DNA of 15,675 nucleotides, taken from the NCBI GenBank assembly GCA_025399215.1, contig MU621459.1, forward strand, positions 1 to 15,675, read 5' to 3'. Below are positions 1 to 15,468 of this stretch, piece by piece. Below the pieces are notes generated by a model. That model ran no database searches. It was not told where the DNA came from and saw only the letters and a list, made by a program, of their open reading frames with translations. The number at the start of each line of letters is the position of its first letter. Positions within the stretch are counted from its first letter, which is position 1. The position numbers were made by a program, and so were the translations under genes. The DNA is from Globomyces pollinis-pini (taxonomy: Eukaryota > Chytridiomycota > Chytridiomycetes > Rhizophydiales > Globomycetaceae).

Positions 1-1024
1 TCTTTTATAACGTTTCGATTTGAAACAGTGTCAAACAGATATTTGAAATGCTAGACCATGGCATTAATAGCTCATGTTTGGGTCTGTAGTCAAAGGATTC
101 AAACCCGCTTTTTTTTCCAGTACCCGTCAGTTCCTTTTTTTTTACAGAGCCTCGTTTTGGAAAGCTTATTTGGGACAACTCAGGACACGGCCAAGTGGGG
201 GTCTCAACGTTTTCTTTCACACTACAGCCAGCATTCAGACCACCTTTGTGTATACATTCTCAAATATGGTCGACACAGTTGAAACATTTGATTGGACAAG
301 TGATATTGGGTTTTCACCAATTTCAGTATCCTTGTGTTAACTTACCACTTCTATGGCTCGGTCATTATGCCTAATTGGTGTTTATTTTGCGATGTGACGG
401 CCCTTTTATCTATTGACCGTAACCCCACAGTTTCTCCATCATCAATGACTGAGTCAAGTTGATACTAATCTGTCACTTGACGGTTGAGTAGGTTCGTTGG
501 GTGAGCGTTTTGACAATTGCCTGTATGCAAATTAATCATAGTCTGTATGTAACCTTTACAATAAGCACGAAAGTCTCTATTCTGAATTCTTTCCCAACAC
601 GAACGAATGGAGTTTTGCGGGCAAACTCTAGATTCCATTACAAAACCTCAATCTTCTGCTGACGGTTATGGTATAAGTAATTCGATCGAATGTGATCTGG
701 ATAACGAGAAATACAAATCACCAACACTTAATGATGTATCACGTTGAGAATCTTAAAAAGATTCAGTTACCGTTACTAGGAATGATTTATTGATTTTTAT
801 AAGGTATCTATGTATATGGTCATATAATATCTTTTGGAAATCATATTTTGCCGTGTGTTACACGTACTTGAGAATATGATTGGTATTTGACCGGAAATAT
901 TAGTATGAATAGTATTCAGGGTAAGTAAGAGTTTAATATTTATCTCCAGGTTCGATTCATTAGTTTCGTGGCTGCTTCTGTCATGGTCAGATATTAAACA
1001 ATGGTAACTTCCATTCTCTATTTT
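1..1024. other. 5' region without a resolved gene
   Basis: About 1 kb with no reading frame I can assign, in a window where the other gaps between resolved genes are 30-170 bp. Open stretches at 58-340 on the plus strand and 5-220 on the minus strand have homopolymer-rich, non-family-like translations. An ATG-initiated 46-codon frame (607-747) is described separately. Around 920-949 lies a segment beginning GTAAGT and ending CTCCAG, 29 nt long, exactly the intron form used in the neighbouring genes, so transcribed and spliced sequence is plausible here. I could not chain it into a protein. The AT-rich stretch at about 790-850 may be promoter sequence for the gene starting at 1025. No tRNA or rRNA was recognised. 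Confidence 0.5.
607..747 (+). CDS. possible short ORF or extra 5' exon (46 codons)
   Basis: ATG at 607 has an in-frame stop upstream and opens a 46-codon frame rich in Ser, Asp, Glu and Asn (it begins MEFCGQTLDS). Near its end, GTATCA at about 732 could act as a donor, with AG acceptors 25 or 31 nt downstream. It could be a small separate gene or an additional N-terminal exon of the coiled-coil gene that I start at 1025. I could not connect it in frame to that gene. No family recognised. Confidence 0.22.
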   Translation: MEFCGQTLDSITKPQSSADGYGISNSIECDLDNEKYKSPTLNDVSR

Positions 1025-4000
1025 ATGTCAACGAAACTTGATTGGAAGGAGCCAGATACAATTGAAGTAGAATAGACACGTTATTGATTCATATTTAGGG
1101 ATGGAAACACCATTATGAATCATCTATGGCCCAGTTCCAAAAAGATCATCAACATCTAGAGAAAGAATATCAAAATGCACAGAGTAACTTTTTATATTGT
1201 CTTATATGGTTAGCTGTTATTCGTAAATCAAAAGAGGCAAGAGTGATACAAAATATGATGGATGAAATGAGTAAACTGCGCTTGGAGTTGGAAAATTTAG
1301 GTGAACAGAAACAATTGGTATCATAATATTTAATAATGAAATAGAATGAGGGACTAAAATCGAGTATACAATCTGTTGTTGCGAAATCAGAAACCCAAAA
1401 AATTGAATCTAGTAGTCTAATTGAATCTTTGAAAAAGCAATTGGTAGACTGTGGTCAAGTTCCCGTAGAATCAGCAGTTGTGGAAAAGTCAACTAAGTCA
1501 GAAGCAACAGATGGGAAGGTTTTAATTCTACAAGCTCAAATTGGAGCACTGGAAAAGTCTCAAACAGATTGGAAACAAGAGAAAGTCCGGTTGCAAAAAG
1601 TTATTGGAAATTTGAAATCTGACATTGAAGATTATAAGATGCAAGTGGAAGAGTATAAAAATCAAATTGAAGATCTAAAATCACTTGAAAAACGAAACTC
1701 AACCATTAGCTTTAGAGGATCTTTGGCCGTACCTACTAATGCACCATCTCCAGCAATTTCTCCATCTGCTTCTGGTGCACCTCCCGCAACTACAGCTAGT
1801 TCGGTACCAGCAGTGACTACAACATCTGCCATCGCAGCAGCACGCAGTTGGTGGACAAAGGGTGCTGTAAATCCAGCGCCAGTTACAACTGCAACGCCTC
1901 AGCCAACCGCGAATGCAGCAAATCCAACTACGTCACTTTCGGGTTCACTGCAGAACCTGGATCATCAGGATCACGCTGCAAAAATTAAGCAATTAGAATC
2001 CGAGATTGAAAGTCTTAAAACTGAATTAAATCAAGTTAAGGAATTAAACAAATCAGTTTTGCCAAATCTACCTACAAAAGATAAAGAAGGTGTGTAATAT
2101 TTATATCTGTTTAATATTTAGATAATTCAGCAGAGCTTGGGAAACGACTGAATGAATTAGAAGTTCAATATGCAAAATTGAAAGCGGAGAAGAATGAATT
2201 TGAGATAAAGTCACAAGAATTGGAGGCTCAGAATAAAATTCTACCGGACTTACAAAAAACAATACAAGTAACCGAAAGTCGAATCAAAGAGTTGGAAACT
2301 ATCATTGTTCCCGACTTACAAAAAGAATTAACTAGTTTGAAGTCCAAGGCCTCAAATGATGATGAGTTACAGAAGACTATAGTGAATCTAAATTCCCAGT
2401 TAACCTCATTTAAAGATGTTGAAATATTATCTAAAGCTAAAGATGATAAAATTATTACTTTAGAGACTGGATTAAGTCAACTGAAGGCCGAATTAGCAAC
2501 AATCGATTCATTGAAAGAGTCTCTTAATCAGAAAAGTAGCACCATCACAACACTTGAAAACGAAAAACATTCACTTTTAAATTGTGCTGAACAGTTAAAA
2601 GAGGTCACGGTCAATTATACTATCCTGGAAACTAAATTGACGCAAGTCCAGAACGAATTGGTCATGAAAAAAGAGGAATTTACACAAAACTTGGAAACTA
2701 TGAAACAACTTGGAACAGTTGAATTAGAGAACCAAAAGCAGCTTACGAATCAGTATTTGGATAGAAACAATGAACATGAAAAGCGTATTCATGATTTAAC
2801 TGAGGATCTTACCAATAAGATATCAGAGATAAATACACTAAAAGCGAAAATTGCTATAACAGGGTCTGAAGAAAATCCAAATAATGACAAGGCGACGGCA
2901 GTTGATGCTCTCAGGGCAGAATTTGATTCCCAATTGAAGTCCAGCAAAGAGAGTTATCAAAAGGAACTTTCTTTGAGTCAAGAGAAGCTACAGAATATTC
3001 AACAAGAGCTAATAACCATTAAAAAACAATATGATAACGTCATTGATGAAAGAAACAAGTTAGATAAAGAATTGCAAACTAAAAAACACCAGAATGAACA
3101 AGCTATTCAACAGCTAGAATCACAAATAGTAAATTTAACGAAAGAAATTGCTGCAAAGAGTAAGGACATAGAACAAGCAAACGAATTCAAATTAAGCAAT
3201 GAGAAAAAAATAGGAGAACTGACGGTAGTGATTAGAACCGCCTCACAACAACTCGAAACTCAAGCAGCTTCTGTAAAAAGATTAGAGCAGGAACTGCATA
3301 CTGCAAAAGAAACAAATTCACAATCCAATTCCACTTTACAGGCAGAGCTTTCAAAAGTTAAAGAAGATACAGAAAAACAATTGGCTGATCTTCATAACAA
3401 ACATTCGACAGAAATCAACACAATACAAACGGAGAACAAAAAGCTCTTAGAATTACAACTAACTAATCATACCACTGAAATTTCAGCAAAATCAAAAGTC
3501 TGTGATGGCTTAGAAGAGGAGTTGCGGGGTATGAAGGATGAACTATCGAAAGTTAAAACTTCCAGCGATGATTTGACAAAGAAGTTGAATACACTACAAA
3601 CGGAATATGACCAAAAAGTGAATGAACTCCAATTATTGTCCAAAACTGGGGATGATGCGTCAAAGAAAATCTCTACACTACAATCCGAATTAGATCAGAA
3701 AGTAATCGAAATTAAAGCAATTACAAAGCAATCTGATGCCTACAAAGTTGAAGTTGATAAATTACACAAATCGATTGCGACAACAAAGGAATCAAGCGAT
3801 TTTCTCTCAAAGAGTCTTCAAGAGCAAATTGCACAATTAGTGGACTCTAAAAATACTCTAGAGAAGAAACTCAAGACTGAATTTGAGGAAAAATCAAAGA
3901 AAGAAAAATTGGACATTGAAGCTGCATTTAAAAAAGAAAGGATAGATTTGGAAGAGAAAAACAAAAAAGCTGTTGTTGATGTTGAGCTTCGAACAACCAA

Positions 4001-5406: not shown

Positions 5407-5605
5407 TTAACGAGCTTCAAATTGAACCACTAGAAATCAGATAATTTGAACACTTACTTCGGTTTGTTCGTTTTTTGTACATGATACGGTATCCACAGTC
5501 GTGACAACGGATCGTTTCCTTTGGCTTGAACATATTATCTTTTCCACAGTCTCCACAAAGATAAACTACTTCGACTTTAGCTTTCGATGCTGCTTGATAA
5601 TCCAT
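5407..5605 (-). CDS. RPB12: RNA polymerase I/II/III shared subunit RPABC4 (Rpb12)
   Basis: Two exons (5605-5458 and 5429-5407) joined over a 28-nt intron (5430-5457, GTAAGT...CTAG) encode 56 aa, close to the ~58-70 aa of the family. Rpb12 is a small zinc-binding subunit common to all three nuclear RNA polymerases, sitting with Rpb3/Rpb10/Rpb11. The zinc ribbon is visible as CGDC (17-20) and CHDC (34-37), followed by GYRIMYKKRTNR. The second exon gives MVQFEAR, matching the invariant family C-terminus (yeast ends VQFEAR). Without the intron the frame would end in an unrelated tail, so the splice is well supported. The start at MDYQ is chosen because upstream in-frame sequence is unrelated and overlaps the divergent gene. 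It is convergent with the CCDC186-like gene (72 bp between stops). Confidence 0.95.
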
Positions 5606-5648
5606 CTCTGAAGAAAAAATAAAAAAAATTTGAACCTTCAAACAAGAA
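5606..5648. promoter_or_regulatory. 43-bp shared divergent promoter
   Basis: Only 43 bp separate the RPB12 start codon (minus strand) from the start of the small membrane-protein ORF (plus strand). The interval is A-rich, with a run of A's on the plus strand. Transcription of one or both genes must therefore start within this gap or inside the neighbouring coding sequence. No TATA element is evident. Confidence 0.45.
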
Positions 5649-5888
5649 ATGGACGTTTGGGACCAGACCATCCAAGAGCTGCTGATTATATTCAAACCAT
5701 TGCTCATACAGTTGCAGACGTCAACAAGATTTGGATTAAATCTATTGGAATTGTATGGGAAAGCTTCGCTTGCCAGCTTTGGTTCAATAGACCTAAGAGT
5801 TCAAGTCATTTTTGTTTGTCTAGTTGGATTCTTCTTTCTATTATGGATCTCAACAAGAAAAATAGAGTATCAAGTGAAAGAACAATAG
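5649..5888 (+). CDS. small single-pass membrane protein, unrecognised
   Basis: An intronless ATG frame of 79 aa lies between RPB12 and the HMMR-like gene. The N-terminal half is amphipathic and Leu/Ile-rich (WDQTIQELLIIFKPLLIQLQ). One clear transmembrane segment spans about residues 51-68 (VQVIFVCLVGFFFLLWIS) and is followed by a basic STRKIEYQVKEQ tail, so the tail would be predicted cytosolic. No signal peptide or known motif is seen, and I do not recognise the family. Its position in a tight divergent/convergent arrangement and the balanced residue composition argue for a real gene. The stop at 5886-5888 precedes a plus-strand AATAAA at 5928 that lies inside the last exon of the convergent gene. 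A GTGAAA donor near the stop with an AG 26 nt on could alter the last few residues. Confidence 0.55.
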   Translation: MDVWDQTIQELLIIFKPLLIQLQTSTRFGLNLLELYGKASLASFGSIDLRVQVIFVCLVGFFFLLWISTRKIEYQVKEQ

Positions 5889-5917: not shown

Positions 5918-5933
5918 TTTATTCAATAATAAA
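5918..5933. terminator. overlapping AATAAA signals of two convergent genes
   Basis: On the minus strand AATAAA (plus coordinates 5918-5923) overlaps the TAA stop of the HMMR-like gene. On the plus strand AATAAA at 5928-5933 lies 40 nt after the small membrane-protein stop, inside the last codons of the HMMR-like gene. The two transcripts almost certainly overlap at their 3' ends. Confidence 0.4.
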
Positions 5934-8900
5934 GCTTACTCCTCCACCACTACCTTCCATGTTCTTTATAACCGCATTTTCTTTCTCATTGTCCAACTCT
6001 TCATTGATGGGCATTGTATCCAATGGTTTTCTTTCAGTAAAGTGGTGTTTGTTTGCATTGCGACCTACACGCGACATTTTTCCAGTAACAACAACCGATG
6101 ATCCATCTTTCAAGCCCTCCAACTCCCGTTCCATAATCATCGCCTTTCGTCTGTAGCCATCTCGCTCTCGTACGAGTCCCAAGTTTGCCTTAAATATCAG
6201 TGATAATATCAACTTACCGCTTTGAGTTCAAGGTTTTCTTTCTTGATATTCTCAACATGTCTGATTTTTTGTTTACTATTCAAATGACCGAACAGTTTAG
6301 CATTCATTTCTCCAATCTCTTGAATTTCAGACGTTTTAAGTCGGTTTTGACTTTGGAACAATTTTAATTGAGAATCAAACACTTCTTGTTGATATTCTTT
6401 TTCTCGGACACTAGTTTCTAATTGCGTTTTCAAACTATGCATTAGCATTTCTTGTATAAACTTACCTATCAATTTGTTCCAACCTCTTATTATATTCTTC
6501 TTGTTTATTGGAAATTTCTTGTTGAAGACCTTCCAATTGTTGTTTGAAACGAATTGACTCCTTTTCAACTTGTGCTGTAACTTTCTTGGCAACTAAGCTA
6601 TCAGTAAGTTTTATAAGGTTGTCTTTTTCAGCTACAGTCTGCTTAAGTGATGCTTCCAACTTGGCATTATTTCTTTCCATTTCACGACACCTAGTTTCAA
6701 GTTGATCTACAATAATATCATGTTTTGATCTTTCGTTCATAGTCTGCAATTCAGCTTTATCAATAACTGACCGACAACTTTCTAGTTCAGTTCTTGTAAT
6801 CCTTAAAGTTTCATCCTTCATTTGAAGCTCCTTTTGTAACAATTCATACTTTTCATTAAACTCTTTGGACTTGTTTTCGGATTTTTCTAATCGTTCGGTA
6901 AGGTGGCCAAACTCAACTTTAGCAGCCCCATGTACCCGGTTTAATTCCTCTTTGACCATCTGATATTCTTGTTTTAGATTGTTGATTTCATGATCTTTAG
7001 ACGAAATGGCCTCCTTCATTTTCATATTCATTTGCTGCATTTCTTCAGAAGAACTTTGGAACAAGGCCAATTTTTCATCACCAAATTTCTTTTCAGCCTC
7101 TTGTAATCGCTTTGAAAGTAACAGTTCAGCGGATTGATGTTGCTCCACTACGCTTGATAATTCATTATTCAAGGATTCAATTTCTTGTTGAAGTTTTACC
7201 AATTCACCGTCTTTACGATTGAGTGATACCTCCAAGTTTGCAATCTCTTCCTTAAGACCATGACATTGAGATATCACTTGCTCTAAAGTGTTCTTGCTTG
7301 CTGTTAATTGGGTTGAGGAACTTATAGATAATGATTCGTGAGCTTCTTTTAATTTATCATGTTCAGAAGTCAAAGAAACCAATCTCTCTTCACTAGTTTT
7401 GAGCTTCTGTTCCAAAGCCAACTTTGAAGAATTCCATTCTACTTTACTTGCCTCCATATACTGCTGCAGTTTTTCACACTCTTCATTTTGTTTTTTAATG
7501 GTTTGGTTCTTTTCTGTTAAGGATGATTGTAGCTCTGCTAGAGTTTCCGTAAACTTGACAATTTCATTTTCCAGTTCATCACGACGGGTTTTGTTTTGAG
7601 TTGCTTCTACTTCCTTTTTCTTCATATTTTCATTGGACTCTGCAAGCAGTCGATTGGCAGTTTCAATTGAACTTTTGGAGTCTTCCAGCTCTTTGGCGAG
7701 TATCGATTGCTGTTTGCGTAATTGGTCCAACTGTAACTTAAGATCGGTCTCGGCATTGCATTTTTCTTCCAACTCCAATTGCTTTTCGGTAAGAATACTC
7801 TGCAAATCTTGAATAGTTAAACTCATCCTGGTAACTCGGTCATTCACAGCGCTTAAATCATCATTTTTGGAATTTATAAGCAACTTCTGTTCTTTCAATT
7901 TTTGTTCGCTTTCCACAACTTTCTTGGTCAATACGTTAATCTCTTCAACATAATGCTCATTATTCTGTTTCAGCATTTGGTTGTCATGTCCGTTAGCTTC
8001 AAGTGCTTCTTTTGCGGTGTTAAATTCCTTAAGCAGTTCGGTATTCTTTAAAGAAAGCTCTGAAATGTTCGCTTTAAGCAAACTTACTTCCTCTTGTTTT
8101 CCACTAAGTTGTTTGTGTAAATCAGCATTTGAACGTTTAAAAGTGCTAATTTCTTCATTTTGCAAGTCATTGAGGTTTTCCATTTCACTATACCTTATCT
8201 TCCAGTTGGAAATTTCTTTGATTCGCTCTGTGCATTCATTCGTTAAAGTTTCCTGAACACCGTTTAACTCCGAAATTTCACGATCCTTTTCAGCTACAGA
8301 AGTAGAGAGGGATTTGATTTTGCTGTTTAAAGATTCCATAATCGAATTTTGATCTTCTATCTCTTTTGAAAGCGATGAAATTTGAGAGTTATGCGTCTTT
8401 ACACTCTCTTCATGTTGTTCAGTCAATTGCGCTCCCTTTTTCTTTGCAAGTTCAAGCTTTACTTGACATTCTTGATATTCGTGTTGTAGAGTAACCAATT
8501 CGGAATGGTGCTTTTTATAGTCTGCTTGTACAGCATCGAGTTGGTGGCATAACTTCTCGCTTTTCAGCAGTTCAGCTTCGTTTGATTTCTTGATTAACTC
8601 CAGTTCTTTTTCAAGCGCCACATTATCTGATTGTAGTGATTCCAGCTGGGTTAACAGTTCTTTTTCAGCATCGCTTGATTTCATTTCTAGCAATTTTTTG
8701 CTTTCAGTCAGCTCTAACACCGAACGTTCAGATTTGCAAAGAGAGGTTTTCGTATTTTCAAGTTGGTCCAACAAACTATCCGAATGTGACTTCATAGATA
8801 TTAAATCAATCTCAAGTTTTTCAATCCTTGATTTCTTCTGATTCAGCTCAGTGGTTAAAGCAATATTCTGTTTTTGAGCATCTAATAAAGATGATTGGTT

Positions 8901-11683
8901 TGATTTTAACTCGGAATTGAAGTCAGATTTAACCTTATTTAAAGTACTCTCAAGTTCTTGGATGTGATTATCTTTCTTTGAGATTTGTTCCCTTAAATCT
9001 TTTCTTTGCTTTTCCCATGATAACTGTTCTTTGACTCCAAATTGTTCCATATCGATCAAAGTACTTTTTGTTTCAGTATATTTGAAAGATAGCCTTTCAT
9101 TTTCAATTTTCAGTGACTCCAATTGTTGTTCTATGTCTTTTTTATAAATTTCTTCTTTTTTTGCACGATCACACAATACCTTCTTCTCATTTTCAAATGC
9201 TATTTTCTGTTCCAATAGCTCAGCATCATATTTCTGTTTCAATTCCATCAATTCAGCATCCTTTTGTTTTACAGCACCGTTCAAACCATCAACCACATCA
9301 CGAATCTTTTCAAGTTCATTCACAAAAGTTTGATCAGATACAAATTTTTCTGCCTTAAAGTTTTCCGAACTGGATTTTTCATGCTGTAAAGCTTCCTGGA
9401 GACCCTTGATGGCATTCGAATATGTATGTTCAAGATGTGTGATCTCCTTCGTTTTACTTTCAATCGTAAGATTTAATTCCTTATATTCGACTTTCCATTG
9501 CTTCAATTGATGTTCTTGTTCTGATAGTTTACTTTCAAGCTCCTTTTCAACTTGGCTTAACTTTTCTTTCAAGACATTTGTTAACTTCATATGCTCGCTT
9601 TGATCGCATTTTGTAAGCTCGTAATTTTCAGCCAATTCATTATAAGAATTTTGATGAGACACTATCTGATTTTTTAAATCTGAAAGCAAACTGTCCTTTT
9701 CAGAGAGTGACTTTAATGATAATTCTAAATCAGCTTTAATCTTCAAGTATTTAGCATTTAAACTCTCAAATGCGTTGTCTTTTTCATGCAACTCTTCTTG
9801 ATGTTTGACTTGCATTCCATCCATTTTGTTCTTTTGATCTTCCACTAATGTTTGTAATTCATTCAATCTGTTCGTGTATTCCAAAGCTCGTTGTTTTGCT
9901 TCGGCTATGGATGTGGCAAGTTTACTTTCAACCAAATCATTGGATTCAGTTTTTGCCTTCAATTCAGTCTTCACTAAATTGATCTCTGATCGCATGAACT
10001 CTACTTGTTTCTTGAAATTTTCTAGAGATTGATTTTTAGCATCTAGATCAAATTGATGCCGTTTCACTGTGGACTCTTGATCAAGTTGGTATTGTTCCAA
10101 ATTACTTTCCAATGAGCGTATTGTATCTTCCAGCTGTGCACGCTGTTTTTCGTGACTTTCTTTGTTACTTTTCAATTCATTTTGAATGGTGGACAGTTGA
10201 TAAACTAAGTCTTCATGTCCAAGTTCAATCTGTTTTTTCAATTTCAAAATTTCATCTGAATGCTCAGCTTCGGCTTTAGAAGCCAATCGCAACTGTTCTG
10301 ATAAATTATCGTTGACTTGTGATAATTGGGACTTTAGATTTTCAATTTGAGAATCCTTTTGCATTAAGGCACGTTCTGTGATTTCTAGATCAGTTTCCTA
10401 CAAAGCAATTAAAATAACAACTCTTTACCAGTTGATTTATACGAGTTAGGTAGGCTTGCTTTTGAAGCTCAAAGGTTTTGGCTTCTGATGCAAGATTATC
10501 CTTGTATTCATCGCATTGTTTATTCAATGATTGTACAGTTCCAGTAAACTCTTCTTTTTGATTCTGGAATTTTTCAGTTAATGTAATGTAACGTTTAGTC
10601 AACTCTTTAGCTTCCTCTTTGAGTTTTGACTCTTTAACACTCCACGCTTCTTTGGAAGTTTGCAATAAATCATTAATCTCAGTATATTTGAGTTTCAAAG
10701 CTTTCTTCTCTTGCGATATATGAAGCAACGAAGTAGAAATCGTTTCTTTTTCAGTCATTAGATTCTTTAATTGTAATTTAATTTTTTGAATATCTTGTTT
10801 CAAGGTATCATTCTCTTGTGCCAACTTTTTTTCAGAGATAGACTTGAACTTTCCATTTTGTTTTTCTAAATCATCAATTTTTTTTTGAAGAATTTCAGAT
10901 TTTGCAGAAGTTTGATGAAATTGCATGGATGTCTTTTCATTTTTATCCAACTACAATTAATATGATATAAATTGTATACTTTAGAACGAAGTAGGTTATG
11001 TTTATGTGATAATTCCGATAATTGTTTTTCTTTTAATGTAGATGTTGTTTGAAGTGTGTTTTTTTCCTTTACAAGTATCTGACATTGTGCATCAACACCT
11101 AACCGATTAGCGCTTATTTCTAATTACGGTTAATTTTTTCTGTCAAGTTGATAATTTCTTTATCTTGATCCATCAAAAGTTTCTCATACTGTTGTTGCAT
11201 TTTTTGATGCTTCATATTTTAGAAAGAAATATAGATACCTAGAAGAGTGAGTCAAAGAAATGTATTTGAACCTCCTTTTTTAACTTTAAAAGTTGTTCTC
11301 GTTCTTTTTGATCGTGGTTGAACATCTTAGGAGCAATATGTGAAGTATTGGCAATATTCTCCTCCTCTGTCGTATGAATTTCAGATAGTGCTAATAAAAA
11401 TTAAATGGTTTTGGAATTACTTTCTAAAAGAATGAATTAACGTTTTTGATCTGATCAATACCAACTAAGATGAATCAGCATATAATGATCTACCTGATTT
11501 AGATAAGAATCTATTTGATTTCCCAAGAAATCCGTAACGCTTGTATTGATCATTGTCCAACAATGTAGATGTATTATTCAAGTATTCACCAGGACCAGGA
11601 GTATCCGATACTAGAGATAAGTCCAATTATCCAATACCTTGAACAGGAAACCTCTTCGCATCAGACTTTGAAAAAGTCGACAT
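5919..11683 (-). CDS. HMMR: HMMR/RHAMM-like spindle coiled-coil protein
   Basis: Exons: 11683-11638, 11610-11494, 11390-11272, 11209-11128, 11098-10980, 10950-10429, 10397-6466, 6434-6218, 6188-5919. Six simple introns are 27-31 nt; gaps of 103 and 62 nt are composite (see separate entries). The join is in frame, about 1807 aa. The N-terminus has KRF (10-12) then TPGPGEY (19-25) and a basic KRYGFLGKSNRF, matching the HMMR N-terminus (KRF...PSPGAYD...SFQKSQRF). A very long heptad rod fills most of the protein. Near the C-terminus GHLNSKQKIRHVENIKKEN (about 1695-1713) matches the HMMR C-terminal motif GHQNLKQKIKHVVKLKDEN, which in vertebrates targets spindle poles and centrosomes. Human HMMR has 724 residues, so this rod is far longer. 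A spindle or microtubule role is inferred from homology. A GTAAGC near the end could be an alternative donor. Confidence 0.85.
11099..11127 (-). other. 29-nt intron resolving an apparent frameshift
   Basis: Read straight through, the HMMR-like frame hits a stop after EKINRN and would need a one-base shift to continue. Removing a 29-nt GTAATT...GGTTAG segment, with a CTAAT branch-like motif 12 nt before its end, joins EKIN-R-VDAQCQ in frame. The apparent frameshift is therefore an intron and the gene is intact here. Confidence 0.85.
11210..11271 (-). other. 62-nt composite intron (33 + 29 nt, AG|GT junction)
   Basis: Between exons ending LKLKKE (GAG) and starting HQKMQQQ (CAT) lie 62 nt with stops in the needed frame. 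The segment divides exactly into a 33-nt GTTCAA...TTCTAG piece (11239-11271) and a 29-nt GTATCT...ATGAAG piece (11210-11238) that abut with no exon between them. Each has the standard length for this window. GTTCAA also serves as the donor of a well-supported intron in the AKR1-like gene. Either one intron twice the normal size or two sequentially removed introns would fit. Confidence 0.6.
11391..11493 (-). other. 103-nt composite intron with possible 3-nt microexons
   Basis: The exon ending FLSKS+G (phase 1) and the exon starting CA-CTA-TCT (phase 1) are separated by 103 nt. The gap divides into introns of 29 nt (11465-11493), 38 nt (11424-11461) and 30 nt (11391-11420) with TTG (11462-11464) and AAA (11421-11423) left between them. 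Those two triplets keep the phase, giving SKS-VET-LSEIH instead of SKS-A-LSEIH. Each sub-intron has its own branch-like motif (CTGAT, TTAAT, TTAAT) 9-13 nt before its AG. A single 103-nt intron is the alternative. Confidence 0.5.
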
Positions 11684-11779: not shown

Positions 11780-13940
11780 TTAAACTAATTCTTCCATGGT
11801 AACTCCAGCTACTTCTGCACGCGTATACCCTTTCTTACGCATCGCCATATTTTGAAGTTCATCCGGAGTTTCATACAAAGTATACCACGATATATTCTTC
11901 AATTGACCACCACCTCCTGTCCAAAAGTCAAAGCAATTAGCAATTGGGCCTAAATTGAATGGATTCACCACTCTCTTTCTATACCCTGGTACATGCTGAT
12001 CATCAGGATGTATTAGATATTCAAATCTTTGGAAGTTTATAGCTTCATTAGTGGTATATGCTGATATAATCTGTCCAGATTGGGAAAAGACCAAAAACAA
12101 TACCCAAAGACTTTGAAGTAAAGTCCAAGAAGTAATTGATACAATCCACGGATCATAGGATAAAAACTTACAAGGCAATTCTCCAAAAATACATGTACCA
12201 AATTGGTTCGTCAACTCCACAGTATCAGGATCCATGGATGTAAGGTCTAACGTCAATTTGAAAAGAATCATTACAATAATAAGACAAATAAATGAAACAC
12301 CAAGCACCAATAACTAAAGTAATGCAAAACACCATAAAATAGCGATGATTGGCGACACCAATACAATTATGAGTCCATGGACAATGACTATTCTTATAAA
12401 CATACAAACACTTACTGATCAAATTTTGCTACACATCGATTGCATATCCTGCAATGTTTACTACGAATTGGCTTTCTGATTTGACATGTAACACAATAAT
12501 ATCGGGCAGTTAACTTTCCAGTTTGTGCCAAGTAAGAAACGGTTTCATTTTTCTCTTCGAATGATGAAGATTGTCGTATATAACCAGGATTTGAAGAGCA
12601 ACCCTTATACAAACAGTAGCAGCAAATCGCAAAATTGGATATGAAAGTCAAATGCGTTAAAAATAAATATGCAGTATCTATAATGTTAAAAATATTCAAT
12701 TGGTTGAACCTTTGAAAATCAGAACCCAAGAGATAAAAACATAAAAAAGTGTAGCTTGGCAAATAGAACTAGTTAAAGGCGTTTCAGCCAACACAGAGGG
12801 ATCGCCACCCAATAAATAGGTAACAATCAAGTGTTTGTGAACCAAGTAAAGAATATAAAATATCAACGGCAAGGCAATATAGATGGCAAACTTCCCAAAA
12901 ATGTAAAACGAAAACGGTATCATGATATATGGAATTAAGTAGAGTGATCTATCTCGAAATTGCTAAAACAATTAACTTTCGATAACGGTAAACCTTGGAG
13001 TTTCCTTGTTTGAGCCCTTTTGCATTCTCCTTCACCAGACGTTCATATGTTGCAAGTGTATCTCTTTCTTTAGCCCAATCAGCAGGAGTCTTTCCTGCAG
13101 GATCTTGTGTATTAATATTAGCACCTTCCTGCAATAGCCTCTGTACAAACTCATAATGTTGAGAAATAACCTTTCGTTAAAATCACGAATATTACTGCCC
13201 AGTGAAGTGGTGTATATCCTGTAGAATCAACCATTTCCATACTTGCGTTATTTCTTAATAATTCTTCCATTCCTTCAATAGAGTTTCCCTGGTAAGCTGA
13301 CCACATGAGAGGTGTTCTTTGCATAGAATCTCTCGAGTTAACGTCCATTCCAATAGATAATAGATAAACAATCATCATGGCATGGCCAGCATGAACAGCA
13401 AGATGTAAAGCATTGTATCCTTGGGAATCTTTCAAAGTGATGTTTGCTCCACGTTTGAACAATAAAGTGACCATCTGAGTATGACCAGAGCGAGCAGCCC
13501 AATGAAAAGGGGTAGCAATTAAATCACCTTCAATTAACTGGATGAAAAAGAGATACCTCCTAAGGCATCAATTTCTGCACCTCGATCCAACAAATATTTA
13601 GCAACAGCTACATGATTATTTATTGCAGCCCAATGTAAGGCAGTCACATTTCCAGAATCTCTATCAGAAGCAAAAACTTTCCCAGATTCCAATAATTCAG
13701 TGACTCTTCCGAGTGCCCCACGTTGCGAAGCATTCCATAAATCCAATTCTAAAACATTAAATAAAATGAATTTAAACCTGATACAGCAGGTAAAGGAGGA
13801 GCAACTGATTCTTTTTTGTGATTTCCACAACAAGCATCATCGATATCAGAATCTGCTGCTTTTGTAGCTACGACATGACCATTCCAGTGCTTGTGTTCTT
13901 TCTTTTCAACATCTAATAAAGGAATATCATCATCTTCCAT
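11780..13940 (-). CDS. AKR1: ankyrin-repeat DHHC palmitoyltransferase, Akr1/HIP14 type
   Basis: Eight exons (13940-13778, 13748-13557, 13527-13196, 13170-12994, 12962-12710, 12677-12416, 12387-12275, 12246-11780) with seven introns of 25-32 nt give 652 aa in frame. The enzyme transfers palmitate from palmitoyl-CoA to protein cysteines on Golgi/endosomal membranes. After an acidic N-terminus, ankyrin repeats occupy about residues 55-270 (TALHWAA, TPFHWAARSGH, NALHLAVHAGH, TPLMWSAYQG, TPLHWAVISQH). Four hydrophobic segments (about 293-395) precede the cysteine-rich domain (C434, C437, H447-C448, C451, C454). The catalytic DHHC is 459-462, its second codon split by a 28-nt intron, followed by CIGVANHRYF. 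Another membrane segment follows at once (about 477-498), then one at 533-551 and the conserved TTNE (562-565). All motifs needed for activity are present. Length fits the family (about 630-760 aa). Known relatives lipidate casein kinases and vacuolar or neuronal proteins; the substrate here is unknown. Confidence 0.94.
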
Positions 13941-14110: not shown

Positions 14111-15044
14111 TTAGTTAGTACTGTTGATTCTCTCCAGATACGCTTCCCAACCTGCTTTCTGGTATGCCTTAGCATTCGATACTACATCCCCACTGCCATA
14201 AATACCACGGCCAACTATAATAACATCACTCTGGCTATCAATGATCACTTGCTTAGGTGTACGATCTACTATTTAATACAAAATATTGTTACATTGTTGA
14301 CCGAGACTATCTCCTTTAGCAATCAATCCAACTCCCGGTGTCATATATATAAAATCATCCTCAATCAATTTGCCTTCAATACTGGTCAATCTGTTTTGGC
14401 CAATGAACCCAACACAAAAATCACGATGTCTTTGAGCCATTTTGATTGCTTCAATTGTATAAGTACCTGTAGCTAAAGATCCAGCAGAAGACATTTCAGC
14501 TAAAATCAAAAGACATCGCTCTTTTGGTAGCCCTACTTCTTTCAAACCATTAACGATCCCATCGCCAGGTATTGGATGTGCATTTGTAATATGTGCCCAG
14601 TCAGCAATGTGATAGACACCTTTACTATATTGTAACTTGACTGTGTTTCCGATATCCTAATATCAAATGGATGAAATTAACTGCAAACTAGTTCATTAGA
14701 TTAAATTATTGATACTTTTCTATCTTCAAAAATGAGAAAGTTATGAATTTTGGATAATTCAGTCAATTGATGTGTTAAATCCAAATCAAAATCTTCTACA
14801 ATATCGATATGCGTCTACAATTAGAACGATATTCTAACCTTCAACACACAAATAAATGGACCTATTGAATATTAATATCATAAACAGTCAACTTACCCAA
14901 GATATTAGCCAATTCCAAAAGTTCTTTTTTTGTAGTGACATCAACGGCTACACTTAGATTTGACTTTTTATCTTCCATGATTTGAAGAAGTCTCTTTGCA
15001 GTAGGGTTTGTATGTAATGCAATTCTTTGTTGATATGTTGACAT
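14111..15044 (-). CDS. URA3: orotidine-5'-phosphate decarboxylase
   Basis: Six exons (15044-14897, 14861-14839, 14814-14716, 14687-14682, 14656-14293, 14265-14111) joined over introns of 35, 24, 28, 25 and 27 nt give 264 aa, the usual size of the free-standing fungal enzyme. It converts orotidine 5'-phosphate to UMP in the last step of pyrimidine synthesis, in the cytosol as a TIM-barrel dimer. Visible motifs: [28 protein letters not shown] with catalytic K57, FEDRKFADIGNTVK with D88, K90 and D93 (yeast D91/K93/D96), [32 protein letters not shown] and [12 protein letters not shown]. The start at MSTYQQR is chosen because it matches the fungal N-terminus; the frame runs further upstream without similarity. 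The second exon is only 23 nt and the fourth only 6 nt. It is not fused to orotate phosphoribosyltransferase, unlike the animal and plant enzyme. All catalytic residues are intact. Confidence 0.97.
14682..14687 (-). other. URA3: 6-nt microexon in the URA3 active-site motif
   Basis: The hexamer TTTGCA is flanked by AG of a 28-nt intron (14688-14715, with CTAAT 11 nt before its end) and GT of a 25-nt intron (14657-14681). It encodes Phe91-Ala92 of the near-invariant DRKFADIGNTV motif. The upstream exon ends exactly after Lys90 and the downstream exon starts with Asp93. Skipping it would delete FA between two catalytic residues while keeping the frame. Confidence 0.9.
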
Positions 15045-15468
15045 TTGTTTGGTATACTTCCAATTGATGAAAATCTCTCTTTTCAATGAAAAATCAATCA
15101 ATAGAATTCAAAATTTAGATGTTATTTCATATGCTATGATCATATCCTTTACCAAAATGATGCCTTTTTAAAGGTCTTCTGTTTAAGTTATACCAAATTC
15201 GAATAGACTTTATCAAAGTTTAATTAGACTTCAGTAAAGTTTAATTAGACTTTGTTGTGTAGCTTAATTAGACTTTATCAAAGTTTAATTAGAACAAGTT
15301 AATGCAGTCAGGTCCATATGGGTTGTTACACACATACAAATTTTCAAAAATGGAAAAATTATTTTCCCAGTTGGGAATCCATACTTTGTTGAGTTAAATA
15401 AGCTTTCAAAGGATGAAAGACTATCATCTATTATCTCTAAACATAATCTTTGGTTTATAGCCCATCAT
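15045..15468. promoter_or_regulatory. URA3 upstream region
   Basis: This 424-bp interval upstream of the URA3 start carries the promoter plus a degenerate tandem repeat (separate entry). Directly before the ATG, on the minus strand, the sequence is CCAAACAA, a favourable A-rich context. No clear TATA box was seen. A plus-strand frame without an ATG is open from about 15286 to 15492; I do not annotate it as a gene. Confidence 0.4.
15198..15298. repeat. degenerate 21-23 bp tandem repeat, about 4.7 copies
   Basis: Units at 15198-15218, 15219-15239, 15240-15262, 15263-15283 and a partial one at 15284-15298 share the core TTAATTAGACTT; three also end in a form of TNNNNAAAG. Copies 1 and 4 contain ACTTTATCAAAG, whose ends form a short inverted CTTT/AAAG pair. 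The array lies 154-254 bp upstream of the URA3 start. It may be a minisatellite or a cluster of protein-binding sites with a TAATTA core. Confidence 0.75.

Follow-up and report, generated by a model that had tools for sequence, protein, structure and literature searches.

The window, a stretch of 15,675 nucleotides that forms positions 1 to 15,675 of contig MU621459.1 in the Globomyces pollinis-pini assembly GCA_025399215.1, carries the gene for OMP decarboxylase (URA3) at its right end, on the minus strand. The gene has six exons separated by five introns of 35, 24, 28, 25 and 27 nt, and its fourth exon is only 6 nt long (Table 1). Translation of the spliced model gives a predicted protein of 264 amino acids that reads open through to the TAA. 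The protein is 79–81% identical to its nearest independent homologues, contains no stop and is gap-free in the other conserved blocks. With the Phe-Ala of the microexon included, it spans positions 1–221 of 221 of the Pfam OMPdecase profile PF00215 at 211.4 bits, and the active-site block DxKxxD is present as EDRKFADIGNTV. A single copy of URA3 was found in the 18,547,825-base (18.5-Mb) assembly, which may be incomplete. Reading intron 5 by hand at 24 nt produced GQQLDRTP, which was rejected in favour of the 27-nt parse and its GQQYRTP, the form seen in homologues. Upstream of URA3, at about 15200–15296 of the window, several imperfect direct repeats of ~21 nt (of the TTTAATTAGACTT.. type) were noticed by eye; these are possibly promoter elements.

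Three further minus-strand features were seen in the window. A small zinc-ribbon ORF at 5417–5707 presumably resembles the RNA polymerase subunit RPB12. The long coiled-coil gene at about 5919–11680, which we take to be HMMR-like, has two predicted 3-nt exons in its 5' part, unbacked by homology, and a possible back-to-back intron pair at about 11493–11209. The gene at about 11780–13940, presumably an Akr1-like ankyrin-repeat DHHC palmitoyltransferase, has predicted introns of 25–32 nt.

Table 1. Positions of the URA3 features in the window and of tiny exons and intron arrays at other loci of the assembly
Feature	Position	Strand	Length	Remarks
URA3 exon 1	14897..15044	-	148 nt	ATG start; profile alignment and translation
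URA3 intron 1	14862..14896	-	35 nt	
URA3 exon 2	14839..14861	-	23 nt	(G)PFICVLK; second small exon
URA3 intron 2	14815..14838	-	24 nt	
URA3 exon 3	14716..14814	-	99 nt	3' end ...FEDRK, AGAAAA at 14716
URA3 intron 3	14688..14715	-	28 nt	GTATCA...ACTAG; branch-like CTAAT near 3' end
URA3 microexon (fourth exon)	14682..14687	-	6 nt	TTTGCA, Phe-Ala
URA3 intron 4	14657..14681	-	25 nt	GTTAAT...TATTAG; weak donor GTTAAT, branch-like TTGAT
URA3 exon 5	14293..14656	-	364 nt	begins GATATC, DIGNTV
URA3 intron 5	14266..14292	-	27 nt	splicing yields GQQYRTP
URA3 exon 6	14111..14265	-	155 nt	up to stop TAA at 14111
Tiny exons, acyl-protein thioesterase and TOP3	L040 (G000:C16), reverse-complement 445-449 and 7049-7053	-	5 nt each	
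Tiny exon GC, nitronate monooxygenase-like gene	L027 (G000:C66), reverse-complement 3018-3019	-	2 nt	
Intron-like arrays, gamma-tubulin	L039 (G000:C15), 105-212 and 479-530	+	108 and 52 nt	4 and 2 units
Intron-like array, GAA1-like gene	L036 (G000:C11), 8751-8835	+	85 nt	3 units

A probable 6-nt exon in the URA3 active site

The reading EDRK-FA-DIGNTV was obtained only when TTTGCA (14687–14682) was kept between the 28- and 25-nt introns. A profile made of 20 homologues out of the 120 listed (the protein P0003 was deliberately excluded), with any GT-AG intron of 18–400 nt allowed, picked this structure unprompted (923.8 against 907.4 when the microexon was forbidden). Enumeration of GT-AG parses with one or two introns here, requiring introns of 18 nt or more and a middle exon no longer than 40 nt, returned 27, three of them in frame; the 28+25 parse yields EDRK-FA-DIGNTV and the remaining two yield EDRK-DIGNTV, lacking FA. 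The preliminary description had proposed TTTGCA as an exon of its own between these two introns, and the free alignment, the parses and the coordinates confirm it. The DRKFADIGNTV motif was also said there to be strongly conserved, which its FA bears out: of the 120 listed homologues (the best 120 of 7,197), 119 have FA there, flanked by the conserved Lys and Asp, with 118 matched by pattern and P0102 (EDHKFADIGNT) added by eye. Without FA, the Pfam OMPdecase score falls to 196.3 bits, a drop of 15.

The exon has the sequence features of a coding microexon, being far shorter than 30 nt and flanked on both sides by GT-AG introns with branch-like CTAAT and TTGAT, and the signals of the 25-nt intron are weak. 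On a splice model trained on Prp8 introns, with branch-site weights set by hand, the strong signals of intron 3 are matched by 0.9% of the GT-AG spans of 22–36 nt in the sampled loci; intron 4 scores 3.2, a value equalled by 12% of such spans. Four other outcomes were translated. Skipping of TTTGCA stays in frame, as had been claimed, and is the only one to do so. Keeping either intron 3 or intron 4, or splicing to the CAG within TTTGCAG, leads in each case to an early stop in URA3. The enzyme made from a skipped transcript would presumably be inactive, going by the roles of the active-site Lys and Asp.

Judged from the DNA and its homologues, TTTGCA is very probably a constitutive coding microexon in the single functional URA3 of this rhizophydialean chytrid, produced by two separate gains of minimal introns. 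It is improbable that the 59 nt are instead removed as one intron, leaving a protein without Phe-Ala that is either a tolerated variant or inactive. The undivided span does score 7.6 on the Prp8-trained model, above the 3.2 of intron 4 by itself, and P0003 is a protein of this kind. However, such an intron would be twice the usual size, FA is near-universal among the listed homologues, and FA codons would have to lie between an AG and a GT by chance; this arrangement, with flanks of at least 20 nt, arose in 11 of 400,000 draws of random 59-nt intron-like sequences.

P0003 is the annotated URA3 protein of Globomyces sp. JEL0801, which belongs to the chytrid order Rhizophydiales and is the best named URA3 relative among the matches listed. 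The protein comes from a nearly identical gene and is the sole listed homologue lacking FA (1 of 120). Its gap is what would be expected had 28+6+25 been merged into a single 59-nt intron. It carries a second plain error, since it reads into the 27-nt intron 5, stops there and loses the conserved C-terminus; on sequence comparison it therefore looks like an annotation failure. Its last residues are CNNIVY, where the window reading has CNNILY, so P0003 derives from a different sequence than the window. That a public URA3 protein lacks two active-site residues and its C-terminus, apparently as a consequence of gene structure, means that enzyme losses called from annotation of this kind may be false.

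Intron size and tiny exons in the genome

The 15 introns of Prp8 are all 27–33 nt long, in a model aligned over profile positions 8–2336 of 2336 with one 7-residue gap and two inserted residues (profile built from 15 of 120 listed homologues). The donor is GTA in 13 of the 15 and the acceptor YAG in 14, with frequent branch sites of a CTAAY- or TTAAT-like form. Ab initio prediction over 21 loci (209,278 bases, 9,880 N) plus the window, with introns above 45 nt disallowed, gave 544 introns with a median of 28 nt. When introns of up to 200 nt were allowed, the median was 29 nt and 112 of 648 exceeded 45 nt, many of them in stretches judged non-coding. Introns of 24–35 nt are the usual size for this genome, where sampled. 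The preliminary description was right that the introns flanking the microexon are tiny, but they are not unusual in this sample.

Internal exons of 1–6 nt were predicted 12 times in the run limited to introns of up to 45 nt, and four of these are backed by homology: 6 nt in URA3, 5 nt in an acyl-protein thioesterase gene, 5 nt in TOP3 and 2 nt in a nitronate monooxygenase-like gene. Alignment to solved structures supports the latter three. The thioesterase exon, GCCTG, lies between introns of 29 and 28 nt and gives QMP-AW-YDII, where human APT1 has MPSWFDII. The site reads SW, AW or GW in 112 of the 120 listed homologues, with 8 outside the pattern, and the public G. pollinis-pini thioesterase P0241 is identical to the spliced model at 223 of 223 residues, the AW of the 5-nt exon included. 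The TOP3 exon, AGAGG, between introns of 28 and 31 nt, gives WTDCDREGENIG, identical to human TOP3A. The 2-nt exon, GC, between introns of 29 and 31 nt, belongs to the sole parse of 283 that gives K-A-GVDG, a reading that aligns ungapped with FabK/nitronate monooxygenase structures. An exon this short could also be the product of an insertion or deletion error in the assembly.

Other candidates fared less well. The 5-nt exon predicted at L021- is intergenic and has no homology backing. Those of 6 and 2 nt at L024- lie in a noisy stretch ahead of a gene and are likewise unbacked. The 2-nt exon at L032+ appears by eye to be a piece of a longer coding exon with a HExxH motif, and the exons at L033+ (5 nt) and L039- (6 nt) are without homology backing. 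At L030, a strong-looking intron pair 6 nt apart was discarded because the second of its two 'introns' reads, by eye, as the coding sequence of a Walker A motif. At L040, a candidate 15-nt TOP3 exon was also seen.

Predicted introns number 544 per 156,882 predicted coding bases, or 1 per 288. Against random intron placement among 477 internal exons, the 12 exons of 1–6 nt compare with 9.8 expected, while exons of 7–12 nt (3 vs 9.6), 13–24 nt (13 vs 18.6) and 25–50 nt (27 vs 37.8) fall below expectation and those of 51–200 nt are in excess (232 vs 162.3). Tiny exons may be somewhat depleted, yet they are present, and their number fits the view that they arise incidentally where introns are gained densely. 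Such an origin speaks against a special regulatory role for the URA3 exon.

The preliminary description had suggested that the microexon might act as an all-or-nothing control point for pyrimidine synthesis, with inclusion giving active enzyme and skipping an in-frame dead one. We consider a regulated cassette of this kind very unlikely. Skipping is indeed the one frame-keeping alternative, and a microexon of 20 nt in Trichoderma has been described as a switch responding to glucose (PMC11121469). However, skipping any of the 5-, 5- and 2-nt exons would, from their lengths, shift the frame, so that frame-keeping is not a shared property of the homology-backed microexons, and the count of predicted 1–6-nt exons is close to the random expectation, though only 4 of the 12 are backed. 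A further reading, that of a decaying URA3 in which the 59 nt are debris, has nothing beyond the odd structure in its favour. It is hardly credible for the only copy found in the assembly, given its 264 open residues, its close identity to independent homologues and its gapless conserved blocks.

Proposed splicing order and related systems

If the constitutive microexon arose as proposed, two minimal introns (24–35 nt) would have been gained separately at adjacent sites, leaving six ancestral coding bases between them. Exon length would be nearly irrelevant under intron definition, in which the two splice sites of a single short intron are recognised as a pair. Two spliceosomes hardly fit on 59 nt, so introns 3 and 4 would be too close to be engaged together, and their removal is presumably sequential. 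Perhaps intron 3 goes first, since its splice signals are stronger than those of intron 4, although this is a guess. Work by Romfo et al. in 2000 on cgs2 of Schizosaccharomyces pombe is said to have found a microexon that could not be made to skip, and reportedly took this as a sign of intron definition and steric occlusion.

A review states the rule that in intron definition the two ends of a short intron are paired (PMC8624252). In human cells, the exon junction complex (EJC) represses donors just after an exon junction (PMC6224609), and a match to Mago, a core EJC protein, was found in the chytrid genome; together these would imply that intron 4 is removed first, or that such repression is weak here. 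The recursive sites and cryptic microexons of the human study resemble URA3 in having a donor a few bases past a junction, including that of a 6-nt reporter microexon (PMC6224609). They differ in that the EJC represses the second donor, whereas in URA3 inclusion is needed for the conserved active-site spacing. The SRRM_C domain (PF15230) of the animal-type SRRM3/4 microexon programme had no match in this genome and likewise none in the control genomes.

A 6-nt exon as such is not new. The view that it is smaller than a spliceosome can define is not supported, as 1-nt exons are in print for a plant (PMC4674806) and a fungus (PMC12940212), and exons of 2, 5 and 5 nt occur within conserved motifs in this genome. 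The Arabidopsis APC11 exon is constitutive, as the URA3 exon would be, and its authors propose intron definition with one-after-another removal, much as suggested here, for a plant gene (PMC4674806). The Fusarium CYP621A exon, which has SRA read support, resembles that of URA3 in being fungal, in lying within a conserved protein motif, and in having come to light through comparison after gene models missed it (PMC12940212). It differs in scale: in F. graminearum, where the median intron is 56 nt, a single nucleotide lies within 139 nt of intervening sequence (PMC12940212), against 6 nt in 59 nt for URA3, between introns of 28 and 25 nt. The Trichoderma Xlr2 microexon was also missed by the gene model, but it is 20 nt long and is reported as a regulated switch (PMC11121469). 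Stwintrons, in which two U2 introns are excised successively at one place, recall the sequential removal proposed for URA3 (PMC5639578; further papers on stwintrons are PMC12403724, PMC9024468 and PMC8469720). In a stwintron one intron splits the splice signal of the other (PMC5639578), whereas introns 3 and 4 of URA3 are both complete, neither interrupting the other, with six coding bases between them. No fungal microexon between introns this short was found in the available portions of the openly licensed literature on microexons, stwintrons and intron definition.

Discussions of microexons often present them as exceptions that are rare, regulated or aided. A compact fungal genome in which several exons of 2–6 nt lie between introns of ~28 nt, possibly at a near-random number, would suggest that intron-definition splicing has no minimum exon size. 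Such a genome would suit as a natural test bed of sequential splicing.

Intervals of zero between introns may also occur. Two sites in the gamma-tubulin gene can be divided into intron-like units that meet at AG/GT, one of 108 nt into four and one of 52 nt into two, and the protein is contiguous across both arrays, ungapped against human TUBG1. In a GAA1-like gene, 85 nt split into three back-to-back units of 27+32+26; the alignment is gap-free at this site, within a weakly conserved stretch. Held to the score of the weakest unit in the gene, random sequences divided likewise in 0 of 60,000 cases for 108 nt (score 6.5), in 285 of 60,000 for 52 nt (-3.0) and in 1 of 60,000 for 85 nt (-3.0). The gamma-tubulin and GAA1 sites may instead hold single longer introns, and the unit proposals do not count as independent evidence because the gene-finder is biased towards dividing long introns. 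Across the 21 sampled loci, zero gaps were in excess at one threshold, with five against a mean of ~0.35 per gap, three of the five belonging to one gamma-tubulin array. Genome-wide, tandem AG/GT units were not enriched, with 65 pattern matches against 66 for the reversed pattern, a crude control.

We tentatively suggest, while thinking it somewhat doubtful, that the spliceosome of this chytrid has no lower limit on exon length: it would remove introns of 24–35 nt in pairs lying 6, 5, 2 or 0 nt apart, and the seemingly longer introns of gamma-tubulin (52 and 108 nt) and of GAA1 (85 nt) would be chains of 24–32-nt AG/GT units taken out stepwise. The URA3 microexon might then, with the same reserve, be one point on a scale of spacings of 6, 5, 2 and 0 nt. 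As a separate observation, G000:C191:21057-21220 and C264:19752-19866 hold intron-like repeat arrays, with CTAAT...AGGTAT... recurring every ~25–35 nt, in five and four overlapping matches.
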